Source of the DNA: a virus
Direction: 5' to 3' (one strand)
IMG/VR virus record: IMGVR_UViG_3300031951_000001
Span: 124,001-188,000 of that record
Length of the DNA: 64,000 nucleotides
Each line of letters starts with the position of its first letter. The stretch's first letter is position 1. Both the position numbers and the translations under genes were made by a program. Below the pieces are notes generated by a model, which was not told where the DNA came from, searched no databases, and worked only from the letters and a program-made list of their open reading frames with translations. Of this stretch, positions 2,638 to 57,074 are shown piece after piece.

Positions 2638-3321
2638 ATGAAAAATCTAAATTTATTATCCGAATCAGATAAAAACAATATTTTAAATTTGTATAGAGAA
2701 AAAAAAATAATTATTGAACAAGAAGCACCAGTACAACAAAATTACACAGTACAAGATTTACAAACTATATTAAATAGGGCACCATATAATGCTAAATTAA
2801 CCGCCGATAATAAATTTGGTCCTTTAACCGCTGGGGCTATAGGCAGTGCTTTAGATATGGTAAAAAGTGGACAAGCGTCTGATTATTTTAAACCGATGCA
2901 AAGTAAACAAGTAACATCGATACCCACATCAACCGCAACTCAGACCACTACTGGCACAACAACTGGCACAACAACTGGTACAACCACCGCACCATTAGCA
3001 CCAATTTCAACGGCTTCTCCAATATCCCAAACGAACAAAGATATTAAAACACCTGCAGACGCGGACCAGGCAATACAAGCGGCTAAGTTGGAGGCTGAAA
3101 AAATTAAACAACAAGGGAAAATAACACAGGAGATGTGTAGAAAAGTTGGTAGAGCCATAAACCCTGTCAACCCATTCAAAAAAGAAGTTGCAAGTCAATC
3201 TTTGTGTGACGCATTAAGAAGTTGTATATCGAATAATATGTTAGTAAGAGATGAATCAGTATTTAGCGCCTGTAATGCATTTCCGGCAACAAAAGGGACA
3301 GAAACAAAAACAACCGTTTAA
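2638..3321 (+). CDS. Unknown protein with candidate capsid-targeting N-terminus and PG-binding-like segment
   Basis: 227 residues. Residues 1-27 form a charged amphipathic helix ending Ile25-Ile26-Glu27/Gln28, matching the (L/I)-x-E cleavage rule of T4-type prohead proteases. Residues about 38-75 (QDLQTILNR ... KFGPLTAGAIG) resemble half of a peptidoglycan-binding type 1 repeat. A low-complexity Thr/Gly/Pro linker follows at about 100-125, then a Lys-rich helix and a tail with three Cys. Its stop overlaps the end of the convergent gene by 4 nt. I infer a head-packaged or virion protein; the function is unknown. Confidence 0.6.
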   Translation: MKNLNLLSESDKNNILNLYREKKIIIEQEAPVQQNYTVQDLQTILNRAPYNAKLTADNKFGPLTAGAIGSALDMVKSGQASDYFKPMQSKQVTSIPTSTATQTTTGTTTGTTTGTTTAPLAPISTASPISQTNKDIKTPADADQAIQAAKLEAEKIKQQGKITQEMCRKVGRAINPVNPFKKEVASQSLCDALRSCISNNMLVRDESVFSACNAFPATKGTETKTTV

Positions 3322-3566
3322 TTCACTTCTGATTCATTGGTATTTTTAGTTTCTTTATTAGAAATAACTCTAATTGCTTTAGATATTATTTCACTTTCCC
3401 CAAGAGAAAACGCACCTCTATGAAAGGCTGATTTACAGGCCATTGTTAAAAAATAAATGGCTTCTTGATTTGACATCGACTCAATGATTATCTCTAAATG
3501 TTCTTCGCTTAGAAGAGGTACTTCGTCAAAAATTTTACCGTATAATTCGTCTGTTTGATTTTCCAT
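3318..3566 (-). CDS. Small acidic protein of unknown function
   Basis: 82 residues, mostly helical and acidic at the N-terminus (MENQTDELYGKIFDE), with no signal peptide or membrane segment. It converges with the gene at 2638-3321 (4-nt overlap) and diverges from the gene at 3606. Two forward genes flank it, so it is a single reversed gene. The ATG at 3566 is preceded by an AT-rich leader. I recognise no family. Confidence 0.5.
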   Translation of the reverse strand: MENQTDELYGKIFDEVPLLSEEHLEIIIESMSNQEAIYFLTMACKSAFHRGAFSLGESEIISKAIRVISNKETKNTNESEVN

Positions 3567-3575
3567 AATATTTGA

Positions 3576-3582
3576 TATTTAT
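3576..3582 (+). promoter_or_regulatory. TATTTAT motif, candidate late-expression signal
   Basis: TATTTAT in the divergent 39-nt gap, 23 nt before the ATG at 3606 and in the sense of that gene. Confidence 0.35.
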
Positions 3583-3605
3583 AATTATAGACAATAAATT
3601 TCATA

Positions 3606-4337
3606 ATGTTAAGTGAGATAATAAAAAAAGTTTTAAGGGAAGCGTCTGGTGATTCTGGAGGTGCCGGTGCGTACATTACGGCTCTACAACCCGGATTAAG
3701 AAATTTTGATAAAACTCAATTACAACCATTCATCCAAGCCGTATCTGATTATGATAGTCCTTTGTTACAATATGATAGTTATGATGGTGAAATGAGTATG
3801 AGATTGGACCAAATAAAAAAAATAGAAAAACAGGCTGAAAAAATCACAGATAAGATGAAAAAAAAACCTTATTTAACCTTTAGTGATGAGGACGGTAACA
3901 ATATAAATCAAACACCAGGTAAAGGATTAAATGTTGTACCTATTAAAGAATGGGTGGAAATAAATGAGGAAACAGTATCTGAAGATTTGGCGGTTTGGTT
4001 TGGTACAAAGAAAAAACCAAAGGGTAGTAAACAACCAAAAGGTCCTTGGGTTAATATATGTAGAAAAAAAGAAGGAGGTGGACATCCCCCATGTGGAAGA
4101 CCTGAAGCCGATTCAAAAGGATACCCAAAATGTAGAGCAGCGGGTGTCGCTTCTAAAATGACTGATTCACAAAAAAGAGCGGCTTGTGCTCAAAAAAGAA
4201 GAGCCGAAAAAAGTGACCCAAAAGTAGGAACAGGTAATTCACCAACTATGACTTCGTACAAACCAAAAAAAAAGACCCAAAATGAGTCTTTAGAAAAATT
4301 GGTTAAGAAAATAATTAGAGAGATTGTTCAGGACTAA
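3606..4337 (+). CDS. Basic Cys-containing phage protein with candidate capsid-targeting N-terminus
   Basis: 243 residues. The N-terminus MLSEIIKKVLREASG carries Leu10-Arg11-Glu12/Ala13, a T4-type prohead protease site, and the C-terminus ends in a similar helix (LVKKIIREIVQD). Between about 135 and 215 is a Lys/Arg/Gly-rich module with four Cys (WVNICRKKEGGGHPPCGR ... YPKCRAAG ... RAACAQKRR). I recall this as a recurrent module of unknown function in uncultured phages, possibly DUF5872, but am not certain of the name. Its basic charge and Cys pairs suggest nucleic-acid or metal binding, which is inference. It converges with the gene at 4315, overlapping by 23 nt. Confidence 0.6.
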   Translation: MLSEIIKKVLREASGDSGGAGAYITALQPGLRNFDKTQLQPFIQAVSDYDSPLLQYDSYDGEMSMRLDQIKKIEKQAEKITDKMKKKPYLTFSDEDGNNINQTPGKGLNVVPIKEWVEINEETVSEDLAVWFGTKKKPKGSKQPKGPWVNICRKKEGGGHPPCGRPEADSKGYPKCRAAGVASKMTDSQKRAACAQKRRAEKSDPKVGTGNSPTMTSYKPKKKTQNESLEKLVKKIIREIVQD

Positions 4338-4758
4338 TTCTTTCATTATTATCAATTTTTTTGAGAATAGATGACAATGAATACTCAATTTGTGATGTAA
4401 TTTCAGTCTCATAGGTCTGTCTTTCACGTTCTGTTCTATTATCATACATACGTGATAATCTTTCCCACGATTTAAAACTGAGTACCACATCATAGTGATA
4501 TACGTGATTTGTTACACTAATCTTTCCACCATCCAAGATAACAAACAATCCAAGTTCGGAATTCTTAATATACCTTTTACCTGAAATGGGGGCTATAAGG
4601 AATTTAGAACTAGGGTGATTAATCAACTTTCTACAGATTGTACTACAAATCCGTACATTATCATCCGCAGGTGCAGAATTATAATTAGATTTTTTTGCCA
4701 GCCAAATTGCTGATTTTACATAGAGTTTTTTAAGCCAACGATTAAGAATTTTTTTCAT
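4315..4758 (-). CDS. Unknown protein, possibly expressed from a host-type promoter
   Basis: 147 residues. It starts with a basic helix (MKKILNRWLKKLY), then has a mixed alpha/beta middle (about 50-110) and an acidic helical end. There are two Cys at about 38 and 42. No family is recognised. Unlike its neighbours it lies behind an exact Bacteroidota vegetative promoter (4779-4809), so it may be read early by unmodified host RNA polymerase. It converges with the gene at 3606. Confidence 0.55.
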   Translation of the reverse strand: MKKILNRWLKKLYVKSAIWLAKKSNYNSAPADDNVRICSTICRKLINHPSSKFLIAPISGKRYIKNSELGLFVILDGGKISVTNHVYHYDVVLSFKSWERLSRMYDNRTERERQTYETEITSQIEYSLSSILKKIDNNERISPEQSL

Positions 4759-4778
4759 GAGTGTTTGATTTATTACTA

Positions 4779-4809
4779 CAAAAGTACAAATAAAACCTAT
4801 ATCTACAAA
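4779..4809 (-). promoter_or_regulatory. Bacteroidota-type promoter TTTG-N19-TANNTTTG
   Basis: On the minus strand, -33 box TTTG (4809-4806), spacer of exactly 19 nt, and -7 box TACTTTTG (4786-4779). This is the known Bacteroides/Flavobacterium primary-sigma consensus. The ATG of the gene it faces (4758) is 20 nt downstream of the -7 box. Confidence 0.75.
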
Positions 4810-4813
4810 AAAA

Positions 4814-5302
4814 TTATTTCTTTTTTTTCGTGAATATGATGGCAGATTCGGTAACCGCTAAAACCGCAATTGCGGGTAACCAAGCACCAGTTACACCTCC
4901 TAATAATATACCAACCGCGGCAACACTAACACATAATGTGTTTTTTTTCCATTTCCTTATTGATTCTGTTTGAGTTATAGAAGTAACTTCATTTCTTAAT
5001 TGTGATACTTGTAATGTGTCTACAAGCTGGAAATAACGTTGAGACAATAAATTATAATCGTAATCGGCTTGTGATAATTGGTCAGTAAGTTTATCGTTAG
5101 ACTTGATTAAAGAATCATTCTCTGCAGAACATTTTTCTAATCTTGATAACTTTTCTAATAATTTGATTTCTTGCTTTTTTGTGAAGAAGATACCTGAATC
5201 ACCCTTAAGGATTATCCTTTTTGGTAATTCTTTTTGACCATAGACTATCACGTTTAGGGTCATTATAATACTCAGTACAATCAATTTCTTTAATAACTTC
5301 AT
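4814..5302 (-). CDS. Secreted/membrane protein with coiled coil and C-terminal hydrophobic anchor
   Basis: 162 residues from the ATG at 5302, which is preceded by GAGAGAG, a rare Shine-Dalgarno-like run here; an in-frame TTG lies three codons further up. Residues 1-22 form a signal peptide (Lys-Leu-rich, then VIVYGQ). Residues about 35-110 are predicted coiled coil, and about 125-157 are hydrophobic, ending Lys-Lys-Lys-Lys. It overlaps the upstream membrane-protein gene by 98 nt in another frame, an arrangement seen in Rz/Rz1 spanin genes. No lipobox Cys is visible, so it is not a standard outer spanin. A lysis role is speculative. Confidence 0.55.
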   Translation of the reverse strand: MKLLKKLIVLSIIMTLNVIVYGQKELPKRIILKGDSGIFFTKKQEIKLLEKLSRLEKCSAENDSLIKSNDKLTDQLSQADYDYNLLSQRYFQLVDTLQVSQLRNEVTSITQTESIRKWKKNTLCVSVAAVGILLGGVTGAWLPAIAVLAVTESAIIFTKKKK

Positions 5303-5567
5303 CTCTCTCAATTACTATTGTTTCTTTTGGTTTTGAGGGTGTGGTGATGAAAACCGTATCAACCTCAATCGTTTTCGTGTCTTCTAATAATAGTAATTTT
5401 TTTTCATAATTCAATAGCTCGATACTATCGGATAGGCTCACGATAGTTTTCTTAAACTTTTCAGTTTCTTTTGGATAGACATTATACACTTTTTTAGGTA
5501 CGGTTATTACATATAATAACAGACCTAGTATAACGGAATAATACCAGTATTTTTTTAAAAATAACAT
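5205..5567 (-). CDS. Small membrane-anchored protein, inner-spanin-like architecture
   Basis: 120 residues. One N-terminal transmembrane segment (about 7-23: YWYYSVILGLLLYVITV) follows a short basic cytoplasmic tip. A Lys/Glu-rich helical stretch (about 33-65) and a hydrophilic end with one Cys come next. The downstream gene starts inside its last 98 nt in another frame. The architecture resembles an inner-membrane spanin (Rz), but no family-level resemblance is visible, so this is only a hypothesis. Confidence 0.5.
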   Translation of the reverse strand: MLFLKKYWYYSVILGLLLYVITVPKKVYNVYPKETEKFKKTIVSLSDSIELLNYEKKLLLLEDTKTIEVDTVFITTPSKPKETIVIERDEVIKEIDCTEYYNDPKRDSLWSKRITKKDNP

Positions 5568-5568
5568 A

Positions 5569-6063
5569 TTAATAAATATCTGGTTTCAGTAGTTTCAAAA
5601 ACTCAACCCAAGTTTCTAAATCATTTTCATTTCTACCTATGTTAGCCGAATAACAACACAGGACAACATTATCTTTAGTGTACCCCTTATTTTTATCTAA
5701 TCTATCTAAAGAAGGTTGTTGGGGATGTTTTGGCTTATTTGACGGTATTAACGGTATTTTGAACCAATAACATAGACCTTTTTGGTTTTCAAAAAGTTCG
5801 TTAACTTCATCGACAGTCAAAGTATTTTCAATACCTCTGTGTTTGGAGTCATGAATCAAGGTATTTTTCCAAAGTCTTACTCTTCTTTCCTTTTGTTTTT
5901 GTCCTTCTATTTTTCTAAACTCCGCATCTTTTCTTCGATTTTTTTTATATTCTCTTGTTGATTCTAATACGCATATCTTACATCTTAAACCTCTTTGTGA
6001 TTTATAAAATTCGTCCGAGGATTTTACTTCATTACAAATTTTACATTTTTTTTGTGTATCCAT
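5569..6063 (-). CDS. HNH-type endonuclease, probably free-standing homing nuclease
   Basis: 164 residues from the ATG at 6063; in-frame upstream codons are possible but this ATG directly precedes the conserved part. N-terminal CxxC pairs (CKICNE ... CKICVLE, about 7-34) look like a zinc ribbon. A basic linker follows, then an HNH-like core (about 95-145) with KGLCYW, PSLDRLD, KGYTKDNVVLCC and NIGRN. That combination is typical of phage HNH endonucleases, many of which are mobile homing enzymes. It is inserted between structural-type genes and ends in Asp-Ile-Tyr-stop, with the next ATG two bases after the stop codon. Confidence 0.7.
   Translation of the reverse strand: MDTQKKCKICNEVKSSDEFYKSQRGLRCKICVLESTREYKKNRRKDAEFRKIEGQKQKERRVRLWKNTLIHDSKHRGIENTLTVDEVNELFENQKGLCYWFKIPLIPSNKPKHPQQPSLDRLDKNKGYTKDNVVLCCYSANIGRNENDLETWVEFLKLLKPDIY
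5572..5578 (-). promoter_or_regulatory. TATTTAT motif overlapping a stop codon
   Basis: Sense TATTTAT, 4 nt before the ATG at 5567. It forms the codons for the last residues of the HNH gene (GAT ATT TAT TAA). The same 16-nt string GATATTTATTAATATG recurs at 45582-45597. Confidence 0.35.
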
Positions 6064-6067
6064 ATTT

Positions 6068-6074
6068 ATAAATA
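6068..6074 (-). promoter_or_regulatory. TATTTAT motif, candidate late-expression signal
   Basis: Sense TATTTAT exactly 4 nt before the HNH gene ATG at 6063. Confidence 0.35.
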
Positions 6075-6109
6075 TATGGGTAAACAAAAAAAATTAAAAA
6101 AAATAAGAA

Positions 6110-6604
6110 TTACTTCTTATTTTTTGAACCACAATAAGGTGGTGAACATCTTTTTTTACCATCTAATCCAGGCATTCTCCCTTTACATACTTGTACTCCA
6201 TAACCACTCGAATAAGCAGAGGGAAAGACTTTAAACTTGGATTTGGCGGCGGCATATCCTCTAGCACAAAGCTTTGTACCTGTTTTTTTACGACCTTCCA
6301 TCATTACCATTTCCTCATCATCTGTTTGGTCATCTAAACTTTCTTCATTTTCAAATTCATTCATCAAGAAATCAAACACTTGGTCCATATTATTTTTTGC
6401 TTCGGCAATATGGTCTTGAGCCCAATCGTGACCGTTATCTAAAATAGTATCAATTTCATCACGATTTTTACTTAACAATATATCACACTGTCTTCTCATC
6501 TGTTCTAAATTTGAGAAAAACATATACCTATCGGACCCCTGCTCCTCTAAAACTCTTTTAACAATATTTGTCAATTCAGATTCGGTCAATTTAATTTTTT
6601 TCAT
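6110..6604 (-). CDS. Small protein with candidate capsid-targeting N-terminus and basic Cys C-module
   Basis: 164 residues. The N-terminus MKKIKLTESELTNIVKRVLEEQ is an amphipathic helix with Leu19-Glu20-Glu21/Gln22, a T4-type prohead protease site. I know this N-terminal pattern as widespread in uncultured marine and freshwater phage proteins. The middle (about 50-100) is very acidic. The C-terminus (about 105-164) is basic with Cys at CARGYAAAKSKFKV, QVCKGR, RCSPPYCG, a module also common in phage genomes. Function is unknown; the N-terminus suggests head packaging. Confidence 0.6.
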   Translation of the reverse strand: MKKIKLTESELTNIVKRVLEEQGSDRYMFFSNLEQMRRQCDILLSKNRDEIDTILDNGHDWAQDHIAEAKNNMDQVFDFLMNEFENEESLDDQTDDEEMVMMEGRKKTGTKLCARGYAAAKSKFKVFPSAYSSGYGVQVCKGRMPGLDGKKRCSPPYCGSKNKK

Positions 6605-35923: not shown

Positions 35924-36319
35924 TTAAATTGGTTCTTGGTCGTATCTTGCGTTTATAATTACCTTAACCATACCTTTATCTCCTGTGGTGTTATATCCGG
36001 GTCTCACAGTTGAAAACTTTTCCCCCATTTGTTTGAAAGAAAGTATTTTATCAACTCTGAAAAGTCTCCACCCTGGTAAGGGTTGCTCCCCCTTGTATCC
36101 TGTATGTGAGGACCCTTCTTCATCCCAAGCTCGTAAAACAGGGTTATCCGCCTTACTGTAACCAAAACAAACAGGTTCTATTTGTCTTAATCCTCTACCA
36201 CCTGGTTCATCCCCATCATAATAAATCACCACTTTTTGCCTTTTCTTAATGGCATCAACAATAGCATCAATTGAGGCTACTTCCAAAATAAGTGATTTAG
36301 CGATGTTGTAAAGTTTCAT
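35924..36319 (-). CDS. WYL-like domain protein with candidate capsid-targeting N-terminus
   Basis: 131 residues. MKLYNIAKSLILEVAS carries Ile11-Leu12-Glu13/Val14, a T4-type prohead protease site. Residues about 18-95 then resemble a WYL domain: IVDAIKKRQKVVIYYDGD, RQIEPVCFGYSK, VLRAWDEEGSS and PGWRLFRVDKI. WYL domains sense nucleic acids or other ligands in transcription and defence proteins. A WYL-like protein packaged with the genome could act on host DNA or RNA early in infection, which is inference. Its ATG shares one base with the upstream stop (TAATG). Confidence 0.6.
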   Translation of the reverse strand: MKLYNIAKSLILEVASIDAIVDAIKKRQKVVIYYDGDEPGGRGLRQIEPVCFGYSKADNPVLRAWDEEGSSHTGYKGEQPLPGWRLFRVDKILSFKQMGEKFSTVRPGYNTTGDKGMVKVIINARYDQEPI

Positions 36320-54271: not shown

Positions 54272-54447
54272 TGTACTACAATAAAATACAATTCGTTTAT
54301 GGGTCCCCAGTTGAATTTGGATATTTGATTGTGGATGACCAAGGAAATCAAGTTAGAATAACCGATTTAAGTGGAAACACATTATCACTTGGGGGGTGTG
54401 GATATTTCTGCACAGACCCCAATGAGTTACCTGATTGGGCTGAATAA
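54271..54447 (+). CDS. 58-residue protein linking fibre and adhesin genes
   Basis: 58 residues, easily missed by length filters. It starts MYYNKIQFVYGSPVEFGYLI and ends with GCGYFCTDPNELPDWAE. Both ends overlap the neighbours by exactly one base (TAATG at 54269-54273 and 54445-54449), which strongly supports translation. Sequence is beta-rich with two Cys near the end. Its place in the TAATG chain suggests it is a stoichiometric fibre or adhesin partner. Confidence 0.7.
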   Translation: MYYNKIQFVYGSPVEFGYLIVDDQGNQVRITDLSGNTLSLGGCGYFCTDPNELPDWAE

Positions 54448-55325
54448 TGGCATACGATTTATTTGATTTACCTCAAACTCCAAACACACAAATTTATAAT
54501 TCAAGGGGAACCTATGTGTGGAACAAACCACAGGGCATAACTATGGTTAATTTTTTTGTGGTTGGTGGTGGAGGTGGTGGAGGTGCCGGTGGTGTTGGTG
54601 GAACTACAATAGGTATTGCCGGTGGTGGAGGTGCCGGTGGTGGAGGCGTTACAAAACTATTAATTCCGGCGATTTTTATACCTGAAAGTGTGACTGTAGT
54701 TGTTGGTGAGGGTGGTAATTCAGCAACCGCTGGAGGGTCATCTTATGTTGATATTTTTAATGGGTTAAATGTTGTTTCTACCAGACTTCTTATCGCAAAT
54801 GGTGGAGCCCAAGGGGGTAGTGCAACTGTGGGAACCGCAGGAACCGCGGGGGGAGGAGCTGCTGTCATCACAGCAACCGCTTCAGTTTATCACAATTTAG
54901 GTATTTTCACAGCAATTGCGGGAGGAAACGGAGGTGCCGGTGCTCTGCAGGGAACGGCCGCGGCGGTCTCAACAACCACTACTCTTACAGGTGGTGGTTC
55001 GGGAGGTGCTGGTGGAGACTCAGTTTCCATTTTTGGGACGCCAGGAACCATCAACGGTAATGGAACTATCCTACCGTCATCACCCCCAAACCCTAGAACT
55101 GTTTCGTTGAACGGTGTTGGAGGTGTTTACAGTATGGCCCCGTTTCAGTCATATGGAGGTGGAGGAGCTCATGGTGGGGCTAGAACTGCCGGAGTTCAAG
55201 GAGGGACTGGCGGTAATGGGGTTTATGGTTCAGGTGGTGGAGGTGGAGGTAGTAGTAGGTCACCCGCAACTGCAGCCCCTGGAGGAAAAGGAGGTGATGG
55301 AGTTGTAATAATAACATGGTTTTAA
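54447..55325 (+). CDS. Glycine-rich tail-tip adhesin, copy 1
   Basis: 292 residues. An N-terminal cap (YVWNKPQGITMVNFFVV, about 24-40) precedes long Gly runs (GGGGGGGAGGVGG, GGGGAGGGG) alternating with variable loops. The end GGKGGDGVVIITWF matches the terminal motif of Gly-rich tail proteins. Gly-rich sandwich domains form the receptor-binding tips of gp38-type adhesins in some T-even phages, so this may be a host-recognition tip. It is the first of three diverged tandem copies. Confidence 0.7.
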   Translation: MAYDLFDLPQTPNTQIYNSRGTYVWNKPQGITMVNFFVVGGGGGGGAGGVGGTTIGIAGGGGAGGGGVTKLLIPAIFIPESVTVVVGEGGNSATAGGSSYVDIFNGLNVVSTRLLIANGGAQGGSATVGTAGTAGGGAAVITATASVYHNLGIFTAIAGGNGGAGALQGTAAAVSTTTTLTGGGSGGAGGDSVSIFGTPGTINGNGTILPSSPPNPRTVSLNGVGGVYSMAPFQSYGGGGAHGGARTAGVQGGTGGNGVYGSGGGGGGSSRSPATAAPGGKGGDGVVIITWF

Positions 55326-55334
55326 TATTTTTTT

Positions 55335-56192
55335 ATGTCATATAATTTACCGGATACATCGTATAGAACTCAAATATTTTATCAAAGTGGTCAGTGGATA
55401 AAACCACAAGGTATTACAATGATATATATTACGGCAATAGGTGGTGGTAGTGGAGGAGGTGGGGGAGTGTCCGCGGCTTTAGGGGTTAATGCTCTTGGTG
55501 GTGGAGGAGGAGGTTCAGGATGTATAACAAGATTAATGATTTCTGCGGATTTGGTACAGGATACTCTAAAAATAACTATAGGGTTAGGAGGTGGTGGTGG
55601 AGCCGCCGGAGTAACGGGTATTGCCGGAGGTGATACAACTGTTGATGGAGTACCATCCACCCTATCAACACTAGTTTATTCTGATGGTGCTGGAACAGGT
55701 GGGTCAACAGGTGGAGGTGGAGGAGTAGGTGGCGCCGCAATGACTCTACAATCGGCAAATTTAGCAGGGGCTTCCGTGTTTTTATCTGCGGCTGGAGGGA
55801 CCGGAGGTGCCGGTACTAGTCTTCTTGCGTCCAATGTAACTTACGGAGCGTTACCGGCCGCAGGTCCATTACCTATAACACCAGGTGCTGGTGGAGGATT
55901 TAAGGATTCATCAAATAATAGTTTTAGTGGTGGAAGTATAGTAGGTGCTGGAGTTGTACCTACATTTTCAGGAGGTACTGCTGGCGGAGGTAATGGAATT
56001 GATTGTCAAATTAGTACATTAGCCCCATTAATACAAATAGGGGGAACCGGAGGTGGGGGTAATGCGAATGGTACAGGTGGAATAGGTGGAAACGGAGGAA
56101 TTGGTTGTGGAGGTGGAGGTGGTGGAGGTGGAATAACAGGAGGAGCCGGAGGAAAAGGCGGGGACGGTCTTGTAATAATAAATTGCTGGTAG
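55335..56192 (+). CDS. Glycine-rich tail-tip adhesin, copy 2
   Basis: 285 residues with the same plan as copy 1: FYQSGQWIKPQGITMIYITAIGG, then Gly-rich sheets and variable loops, ending GGAGGKGGDGLVIINCW. Pairwise similarity is concentrated in the N-terminal KPQGITM motif and in the last 20 residues; the loops differ in length and sequence, consistent with rapid receptor-driven change. It sits 9 nt after copy 1 and is probably expressed with it. Confidence 0.7.
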   Translation: MSYNLPDTSYRTQIFYQSGQWIKPQGITMIYITAIGGGSGGGGGVSAALGVNALGGGGGGSGCITRLMISADLVQDTLKITIGLGGGGGAAGVTGIAGGDTTVDGVPSTLSTLVYSDGAGTGGSTGGGGGVGGAAMTLQSANLAGASVFLSAAGGTGGAGTSLLASNVTYGALPAAGPLPITPGAGGGFKDSSNNSFSGGSIVGAGVVPTFSGGTAGGGNGIDCQISTLAPLIQIGGTGGGGNANGTGGIGGNGGIGCGGGGGGGGITGGAGGKGGDGLVIINCW

Positions 56193-56198
56193 ATACAA

Positions 56199-57074
56199 AT
56201 GATAGACGTAAATAATCTCGCTCAAAAAAATAACTTTCAAATTTTTTATTCCTCGGGTATATGGACAAAACCCAGGGGGGTAAGTAGTATTTTAATAACC
56301 GCAATAGGAGGCGGAGGAGGTGGTGGAGGAGGATTTAGTGCCGCTTCGGGCTCCAATAAAGCCGGAGGTGGAGGAGGGGGTTCAGGAAGTATATCAAGAC
56401 TTTATTTACCATCCATTGTTATTCCTGATGTATTAGAAATAACCGTAGGTAATGGAGGTTCTGGAGGGGCAACAACAGTTGCGGGTACAAGTGGGGGTCA
56501 AACAATAGTTGAGGTTGCCAACAGTGTTAACGCCTCCCAAACTTATGTTTTAGTTGCAAATGGGGGTGGAGGTGGAGGAGCCGGTACCGCGGCGGCTAGA
56601 GGTACTGCCGGATTAGCAGGAACAATATCAAGTGCGGCAGCGGCATTATATTCAAATTTAGGTCACCCTATTTTTACTGTAGGTATGGTTGGTGCGTTAG
56701 GAGGTCTACCTACGGCTAATTCACCAGGTAATAGTATAAGTTTAGGAGTTTTAACACCATTTATCCCCGTGTCTGGTGGAGCTGGAGGTGGAGCAAGGAC
56801 CGCTAACGGAGGTTCTGTAATACCCGCGCTAGGTACAGACATTCCAACCATTGCTGGAGGTACTTCAACAAGTATTGATGGTAAGGGTGGATTTTATAGA
56901 CTAAAAGGGTTTTATAGTTTGGGGGGCGGTGGTGGTGCAGGTGTTGAAACGTCGAATGGCGGTAATGGTGGCCCAGGAGGACCTGGTTCAGGTGGTGGGG
57001 GAGGAGGTTCAGGTACAACAGGAGGGACTGGTGGAAAGGGAGGTCAAGGTATTGTAATAATAACTTGTTGGTAA
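56199..57074 (+). CDS. Glycine-rich tail-tip adhesin, copy 3
   Basis: 291 residues. FYSSGIWTKPRGVSSILITAIGG at about 14-36 and the final GGTGGKGGQGIVIITCW match copies 1 and 2; the middle is again Gly-rich with a unique loop pattern (PSIVIPDVLEITVGNGGSGG). Three copies imply either a heterotrimeric tip or alternative tips used against different receptors. It ends the fibre/adhesin transcript; a 60-nt AT-rich gap follows before the second sugar block. Confidence 0.7.
   Translation: MIDVNNLAQKNNFQIFYSSGIWTKPRGVSSILITAIGGGGGGGGGFSAASGSNKAGGGGGGSGSISRLYLPSIVIPDVLEITVGNGGSGGATTVAGTSGGQTIVEVANSVNASQTYVLVANGGGGGGAGTAAARGTAGLAGTISSAAAALYSNLGHPIFTVGMVGALGGLPTANSPGNSISLGVLTPFIPVSGGAGGGARTANGGSVIPALGTDIPTIAGGTSTSIDGKGGFYRLKGFYSLGGGGGAGVETSNGGNGGPGGPGSGGGGGGSGTTGGTGGKGGQGIVIITCW

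Follow-up and report, generated by a model that had tools for sequence, protein, structure and literature searches.

The 64,000-nucleotide stretch of viral DNA analyzed here (hereafter the window) comprises bases 124001-188000 of the virus record IMGVR_UViG_3300031951_000001, which has a total length of 322372 bases. Four genes in the window, called 2638, 3606, 6110, and 35924 after their lowest coordinates, encode proteins in which a short leader peptide precedes the body. A comparable arrangement is known from T4, whose internal proteins are targeted to the prohead core by propeptides of 10-19 residues, with gp21 cutting after L/I-x-E (PMC9026906). A first-pass annotation of the window had proposed that the four leaders are candidate capsid-targeting sequences of this kind. 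The four open reading frames (ORFs) that it listed are present (Table 1), and their leaders end as it described, with IIE/Q, LRE/A, LEE/Q, and ILE/V, respectively.

Leader types and their terminal glutamate

The annotation was mistaken in treating the leaders as one peptide common to all four genes. Scoring the window genes with leave-one-out leader profiles separated at least three types. Class I, with a consensus of approximately MKKxIRLTESDLxxIVKRVINE/Q, includes the leader of 6110, and class II, approximately MKNLFIITEEEKNRILGLHESATKRQYLSE/Q, includes that of 2638. The leader of 35924 was matched by neither profile and could not be joined to either class. Taken together, class I leaders fit the description as basic and amphipathic (mean net charge +2.6; hydrophobic moment 0.57 versus 0.29 for shuffled sequences), but each of the four window leaders has a net charge of just +1, and the moments of those in 2638 (0.30) and 35924 (0.31) are low.

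Table 1. Leader-bearing genes of the window and their features (cut sites are predictions)
Feature	Position	Strand	Remarks
Cargo candidate, 227 amino acids, class II leader	2638..3321	+	Body weakly matches the peptidoglycan-binding domain PF01471 (E=0.012, below cut-off)
Class II leader MKNLNLLSESDKNNILNLYREKKIIIE	2638..2718	+	Putative cut before Q28; leave-one-out E=6e-5
Cargo candidate, 243 amino acids, conserved basic Cys-rich body	3606..4337	+	phrog_23735, E=1.8e-6
Truncated class I leader MLSEIIKKVLRE	3606..3641	+	Putative cut before A13; profile E=0.013
C-terminal leader-like helix, residues 229-239	4290..4322	+	Some relatives, e.g., L147, have a complete class I leader here
Cargo candidate, 164 amino acids, helical body and basic Cys module	6110..6604	-	phrog_27331, 1.4e-10; DUF5872 weak
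Class I leader MKKIKLTESELTNIVKRVLEE	6542..6604	-	Putative cut before Q22; leave-one-out E=4.9e-12; Glu21 invariant
Invariant Glu103-Gly104 between helical body and basic Cys module	6293..6298	-	37-row alignment of 6110 family
Cargo candidate, 131 amino acids, WYL-like	35924..36319	-	PF13280, E=3.3e-4, 21.1 bits, just under 21.8 cut-off
Short leader MKLYNIAKSLILE, own type	36281..36319	-	Putative cut before V14; [LI]xE in 53/53 distinct homologues

The triplet itself is common. Within residues 7-32, (L/I)xE occurs in 20 of the 62 window ORFs, compared with 14.6 expected from shuffles, a count that is near chance, not significant, and weak as evidence. Because the motif count alone is weak, homologues of the four genes were collected from viral contigs, whose records may be fragments, and compared; start codons were mostly taken as the first ATG. 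In the families of 6110, 3606, and 35924, bodies are strongly conserved and leaders vary in both length and sequence. Despite very different leader lengths, [LIV]xE lies ahead of the body in 62/62 homologues of 6110, and the terminal Glu is the sole invariant leader column in the 37-row alignment of this family. Its body can follow MKKIKLTESELTNIVKRVLEE, MEKLIKKILKE, MNNLDLKIKKILKE, or MKNINRIIKKVLLE. Similarly, the strict [LI]xE site is kept in 51 of 55 homologues of 3606, though the leader may be MLSEIIKKVLRE, MTNDKKINE, MGKNLNE, or MNQQEKFFLLNE.

Homologues of 35924 carry Leu, Cys, Val, Tyr, or Thr at P2 of the conserved [LI]xE site; this leader is backed by one family only, and its site could still be a coincidence. 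The search for relatives of the 2638 protein returned only identical copies of the whole protein. A position matrix trained on the other three families was also applied to 417 further protein clusters of the collected loci, each represented by one member; scores of at least 16 were found at the N terminus in 12/417 clusters versus 1/3069 internal windows.

The putative cleavage sites are therefore considered real, because the terminal Glu is kept in homologues while the leaders vary. The explanation that the annotation simply picked four matches to a common motif draws on the near-chance count in the window, and is contradicted by this conservation, by profile matches in the genome with E values down to 2.5e-14, and by N-terminal enrichment. 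We regard it as highly improbable.

Leaders elsewhere in the genome and in relatives

The annotation had suggested that a profile search would reveal more cargo, and class I leaders were indeed found at further sites both in this genome and in relatives. The class I profile matches 12 places in the genome at E<1e-3, the best at 2.5e-14. One of these is the 6110 gene, and the others lie outside the window, six of them at 36.5-40.1 kb; in leave-one-out scoring, none of the window ORFs other than 2638, 3606, and 6110 reaches E<0.05 with this profile. Another 95 matches were found in 11 long relatives at E<=0.01, although relatives were among the examples used to construct the profile, such that these counts are partly seeded. 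When matches were placed in their ORFs, 99 of 111 were at the extreme N terminus, and Glu occupies the position predicted by the profile in 95 of 101. The tag is portable: the 98 class I proteins fall into 72 body families (phmmer single linkage) without mutual similarity. Pfam and PHROG scans found little for most cargo bodies.

Class II is represented by three clear matches in this genome, including the 2638 gene, and by two to seven per relative, with 35 of 36 examined matches being N-terminal. Two further window ORFs match the class II profile at 0.01, neither at a leader-like N terminus. A peptidoglycan-binding domain is present in several of the class II bodies (PF01471 at 1.2e-10, 8.8e-10, 2.1e-6, and 9.1e-6).

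A common N terminus could in principle be spread by gene duplication or recombination and have no targeting role, with the bodies having diverged past recognition. Leader genes are in fact clustered side by side, for example at 36.5-40.1 kb of the genome, and neighbors sometimes carry leaders that are almost identical (L014). The conservation of leaders across 72 dissimilar body families nonetheless needs selection on the leader, and different leader classes converge on the same terminal triplet. We therefore consider it very unlikely.

From about 31.6 to 41.2 kb of the genome, most small genes begin with a class I leader, a class II leader, or a shorter leader of the MKYLITES type. In this island (G000:31600-41200; L429:5642-15224), which is outside the window, several MKYLITESK... 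genes look like tandem paralogues.

Leaders are not confined to N termini. One protein in L382 alternates leaders and bodies (leader-body-leader-body), and in L365 the second of its bodies occurs by itself after a leader. The DUF5872-type body follows an internal leader in L140 and is N-terminal elsewhere. Proteins of the 3606 family end in a leader-like helix, which the first-pass annotation did not notice; in some relatives, this helix is a full-length class I leader, for example KKTVRLTESDLVRLVKKIINEQIG. Asn-Glu is conserved ahead of the C-terminal helix in this family and does not match (L/I)xE. In the 6110 family, the invariant Glu103-Gly104 is possibly a second, putative cut site. In a Prochlorococcus phage, the basic C-terminal module beyond it is encoded on its own by a small ORF that adjoins the scaffold gene.

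Additional tag types occur in other phages. A third type, approximately MKNIKxFxxFVNE, was found in L343 and in LR756502.1, a 642-kb uncultured phage, at up to 23 places (E<1); all six loci opened have it at or almost at the N terminus, and it is reminiscent of the T4 sequence MKTYQEFIAE. The cultured Flavobacterium phage immuto carries the leader MENFDLKKFLVENKLTxNSKxLKE/ on three genes (L345:2712-4012; L486:1803-2318), and this leader ends in a fitting protease site; class I and class II tags turned up in no cultured phage. In L439 (contig QCKH01000009.1 of the Prochlorococcus single-cell genome AG-409-L21), phage genes lie within a bacterial assembly; many genes there start with MKIKLTEEQYKRIIxE, and a DUF5872-type body is split across two ORFs.

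One class I leader precedes a 341-amino-acid protein (G000:316370-317395, -; L335:544-1569) whose motifs GRESDFG and GIAQMTP resemble those of lytic transglycosylases. This protein had no sequence match in Pfam, PHROG, or PDB, and a fold model of it (genome 317 kb) was set aside because it was built from four sequences and had a predicted local distance difference test (pLDDT) score of 45.

Protease, capsid, and a proposed loading route

The T4-type prohead protease on which the capsid-targeting idea hinges was located in this genome. It is an S77 protease encoded at G000:117245-117670 (PF03420, 1.5e-25; phrog_207, 2.8e-43), and it has LNHP and G(I/V)SSRG motifs in common with the catalytic region of T4 gp21. 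Near it is the gene for a major capsid protein of the gp23 type (PF07068, 2e-73). Both genes are in L003, just upstream of the window, where further ORFs are putatively named terminase, portal, and scaffold on the basis of gene order and sequence; the scaffold candidate had no Pfam or PHROG match.

These head proteins carry sites matching those of the leaders. The pro-region of the capsid protein ends with LINE/(A,S) near residue 60, which is conserved in relatives, as is an (L/I/V)xE/Q site in the scaffold candidate. Some cargo sites, for instance INE/ATSDS in L103, are nearly letter-for-letter copies of the capsid site LINE/ATSDG. Furthermore, each of the 11 long relatives (11/11) encodes one S77 protease.

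Another possibility is that the tag is an uncleaved docking or localization helix, directed to a membrane, a replication site, or a host complex, with the terminal (L/I)xE being incidental. Class I leaders are amphipathic, and the predicted helix ends at residue 21. In a structure model of the 6110 protein (mean pLDDT 62.8), the leader forms a helix at residues 8-21 with moderate confidence; comparison of this model with viral folds gave nothing at E<=0.001, and the top entry was an uncharacterized phage protein at 1.8e-3. A docking role sits poorly with the 6110 and 3606 families, in which the helix shrinks or changes and the (L/I)xE triplet stays. Some 3606 relatives retain just 8-10 or so residues, as in MTNDKKINE, and the end of the capsid pro-region conserves the same triplet. 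We therefore view the docking helix as unlikely.

The leaders are, in our assessment of their sequences, quite probably capsid-targeting propeptides of an expanded system that works like that of T4 with tags dissimilar in sequence, and the original suggestion of candidate capsid-targeting sequences is well supported by the portable, cleavable-looking tag on many unrelated bodies. In this large uncultured aquatic phage and its relatives, dozens of unrelated proteins each bear a short, apparently cleavable N-terminal tag from a small set, most likely for loading into the head beside the DNA. By analogy with T4, we infer core binding, cleavage, presence in the virion, and ejection of the cargo. 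A short, mostly helical tag would take an unrelated protein into the core of the assembling prohead, and the T4-type S77 serine protease of the phage would cut after (L/I)-x-E as the head matures. The mature cargo would remain in the head beside the genome and would perhaps be ejected with the DNA. The tag is a portable module of several sequence classes, present at the N terminus, between two modules of one protein, or, in one family, at the C terminus.

Several observations weigh against this proposal. At position P3, 12 of the 98 class I leaders have Val or Met, whereas T4 is stricter in having L/I. A second (L/I)(T/S)E is present near residue 9 in 91 of 98 class I leaders; one or both of these (L/I)xE-type sites may be used. 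Class I and class II tags have no detectable similarity to T4 MKTYQEFIAE, and neither class has a match in T4. Immuto, RM378, LR756502, and a Microcystis phage possess an S77 protease but no class I tag; therefore, the protease does not imply these tag classes. Finally, cleavage and packaging are predicted from sequence.

Elsewhere among the phages searched, a single class I match (7e-5) was obtained in LR756508 and a single weak class II match in the Microcystis phage. Like T4, phages crAss001, phi38:1, phi14:2, and phiKZ lack class I and class II matches, and only T4 among these five has the protease. The absence of tags from the distant phages lacking the protease gives the proposed loading route weak support.

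Other genes in and near the window include one for a subtilase-family protease with an apparent signal peptide (249-2558, +; PF00082, 5.8e-31), which adjoins the leader genes. A long run of sugar and glycosyltransferase-like genes (13378-35321, -) encodes a GDP-mannose dehydratase (PF16363, 1.1e-116) and a DegT-type aminotransferase (PF01041), and has PhoH inside it. Three adjacent glycine-rich paralogues are located at 54447-57074 (+), the first of which matches PF21722 at 2.6e-11. Just upstream of the window is a gene for a DNA/RNA non-specific endonuclease with an apparent signal peptide (L003:18635-19216, +; PF01223, 1.4e-24), and immuto has a similar gene.

Comparison with known phages

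The closest parallel is provided by T4 internal proteins IPI-IPIII (PMC9026906), which likewise have short N-terminal propeptides ending in (L/I)xE on unrelated bodies and an S77 protease. Also in common is a gp23-type capsid protein whose pro-region terminates in a site of this sort. In the IPIII peptide, residues 8 and 10 govern processing (PMC9026906). Because the tags described here are dissimilar to those of T4, we say that they work like the T4 system and do not claim membership in the T4 peptide family. A further likeness is offered by T4 Alt, which is processed at both ends (PMC9026906), since the 3606 family combines an N-terminal leader with a C-terminal leader-like helix. The 3606 body is unrelated to Alt, and the Asn-Glu before that helix misfits (L/I)xE.

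Propeptides are removed after Glu from many head proteins of phiKZ and SPN3US (PMC9026906); these phages also pack proteins together with the genome and eject inner-head proteins. The proteases of these phages are divergent, with that of phiKZ cutting after S/A-x-E (PMC9026906), and phiKZ had neither a PF03420 match nor a class I or class II leader. The Moraphages, aquatic jumbo phages of Bacteroidota (PMC12619734), are similarly large, and both a major capsid protein and a prohead core protein protease are recorded for them; they are plausibly the lineage of this phage. The word "propeptide" is absent from the main text of that paper (PMC12619734). A tblastn search of named phages with the consensus leader gave no match, the query probably being too short, and leader strings were not found in the texts of papers.

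T4 has a handful of cargo proteins, whereas the phages described here have many more cargo families, several tag classes, and internal as well as C-terminal copies. These features set the system apart from that of T4, and no description of them was found in the literature searched, which mostly excluded subscription journals.

Whether jumbo phages with S77 proteases generally use a virion-loading code, in which interchangeable tag classes stand at the N terminus, at the C terminus, or between the modules of polyprotein cargo, seems to us an evenly balanced question. Under such a code, dozens of proteins per lineage, including peptidoglycan-binding ones, would enter the head and then the cell, and cargo would be readable from sequence alone. 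If the leaders do target the capsid, a profile of 23-32 residues would predict packaged proteins among the hundreds of uncharacterized ones in uncultured jumbo phages. Packaged proteins would probably act at the first moments of infection, and antidefense and take-over factors would be expected among them. The tags would also offer a ready means of bringing foreign proteins into large phage heads, and the T4 internal proteins would represent a single case of a modular loading system that is widespread.

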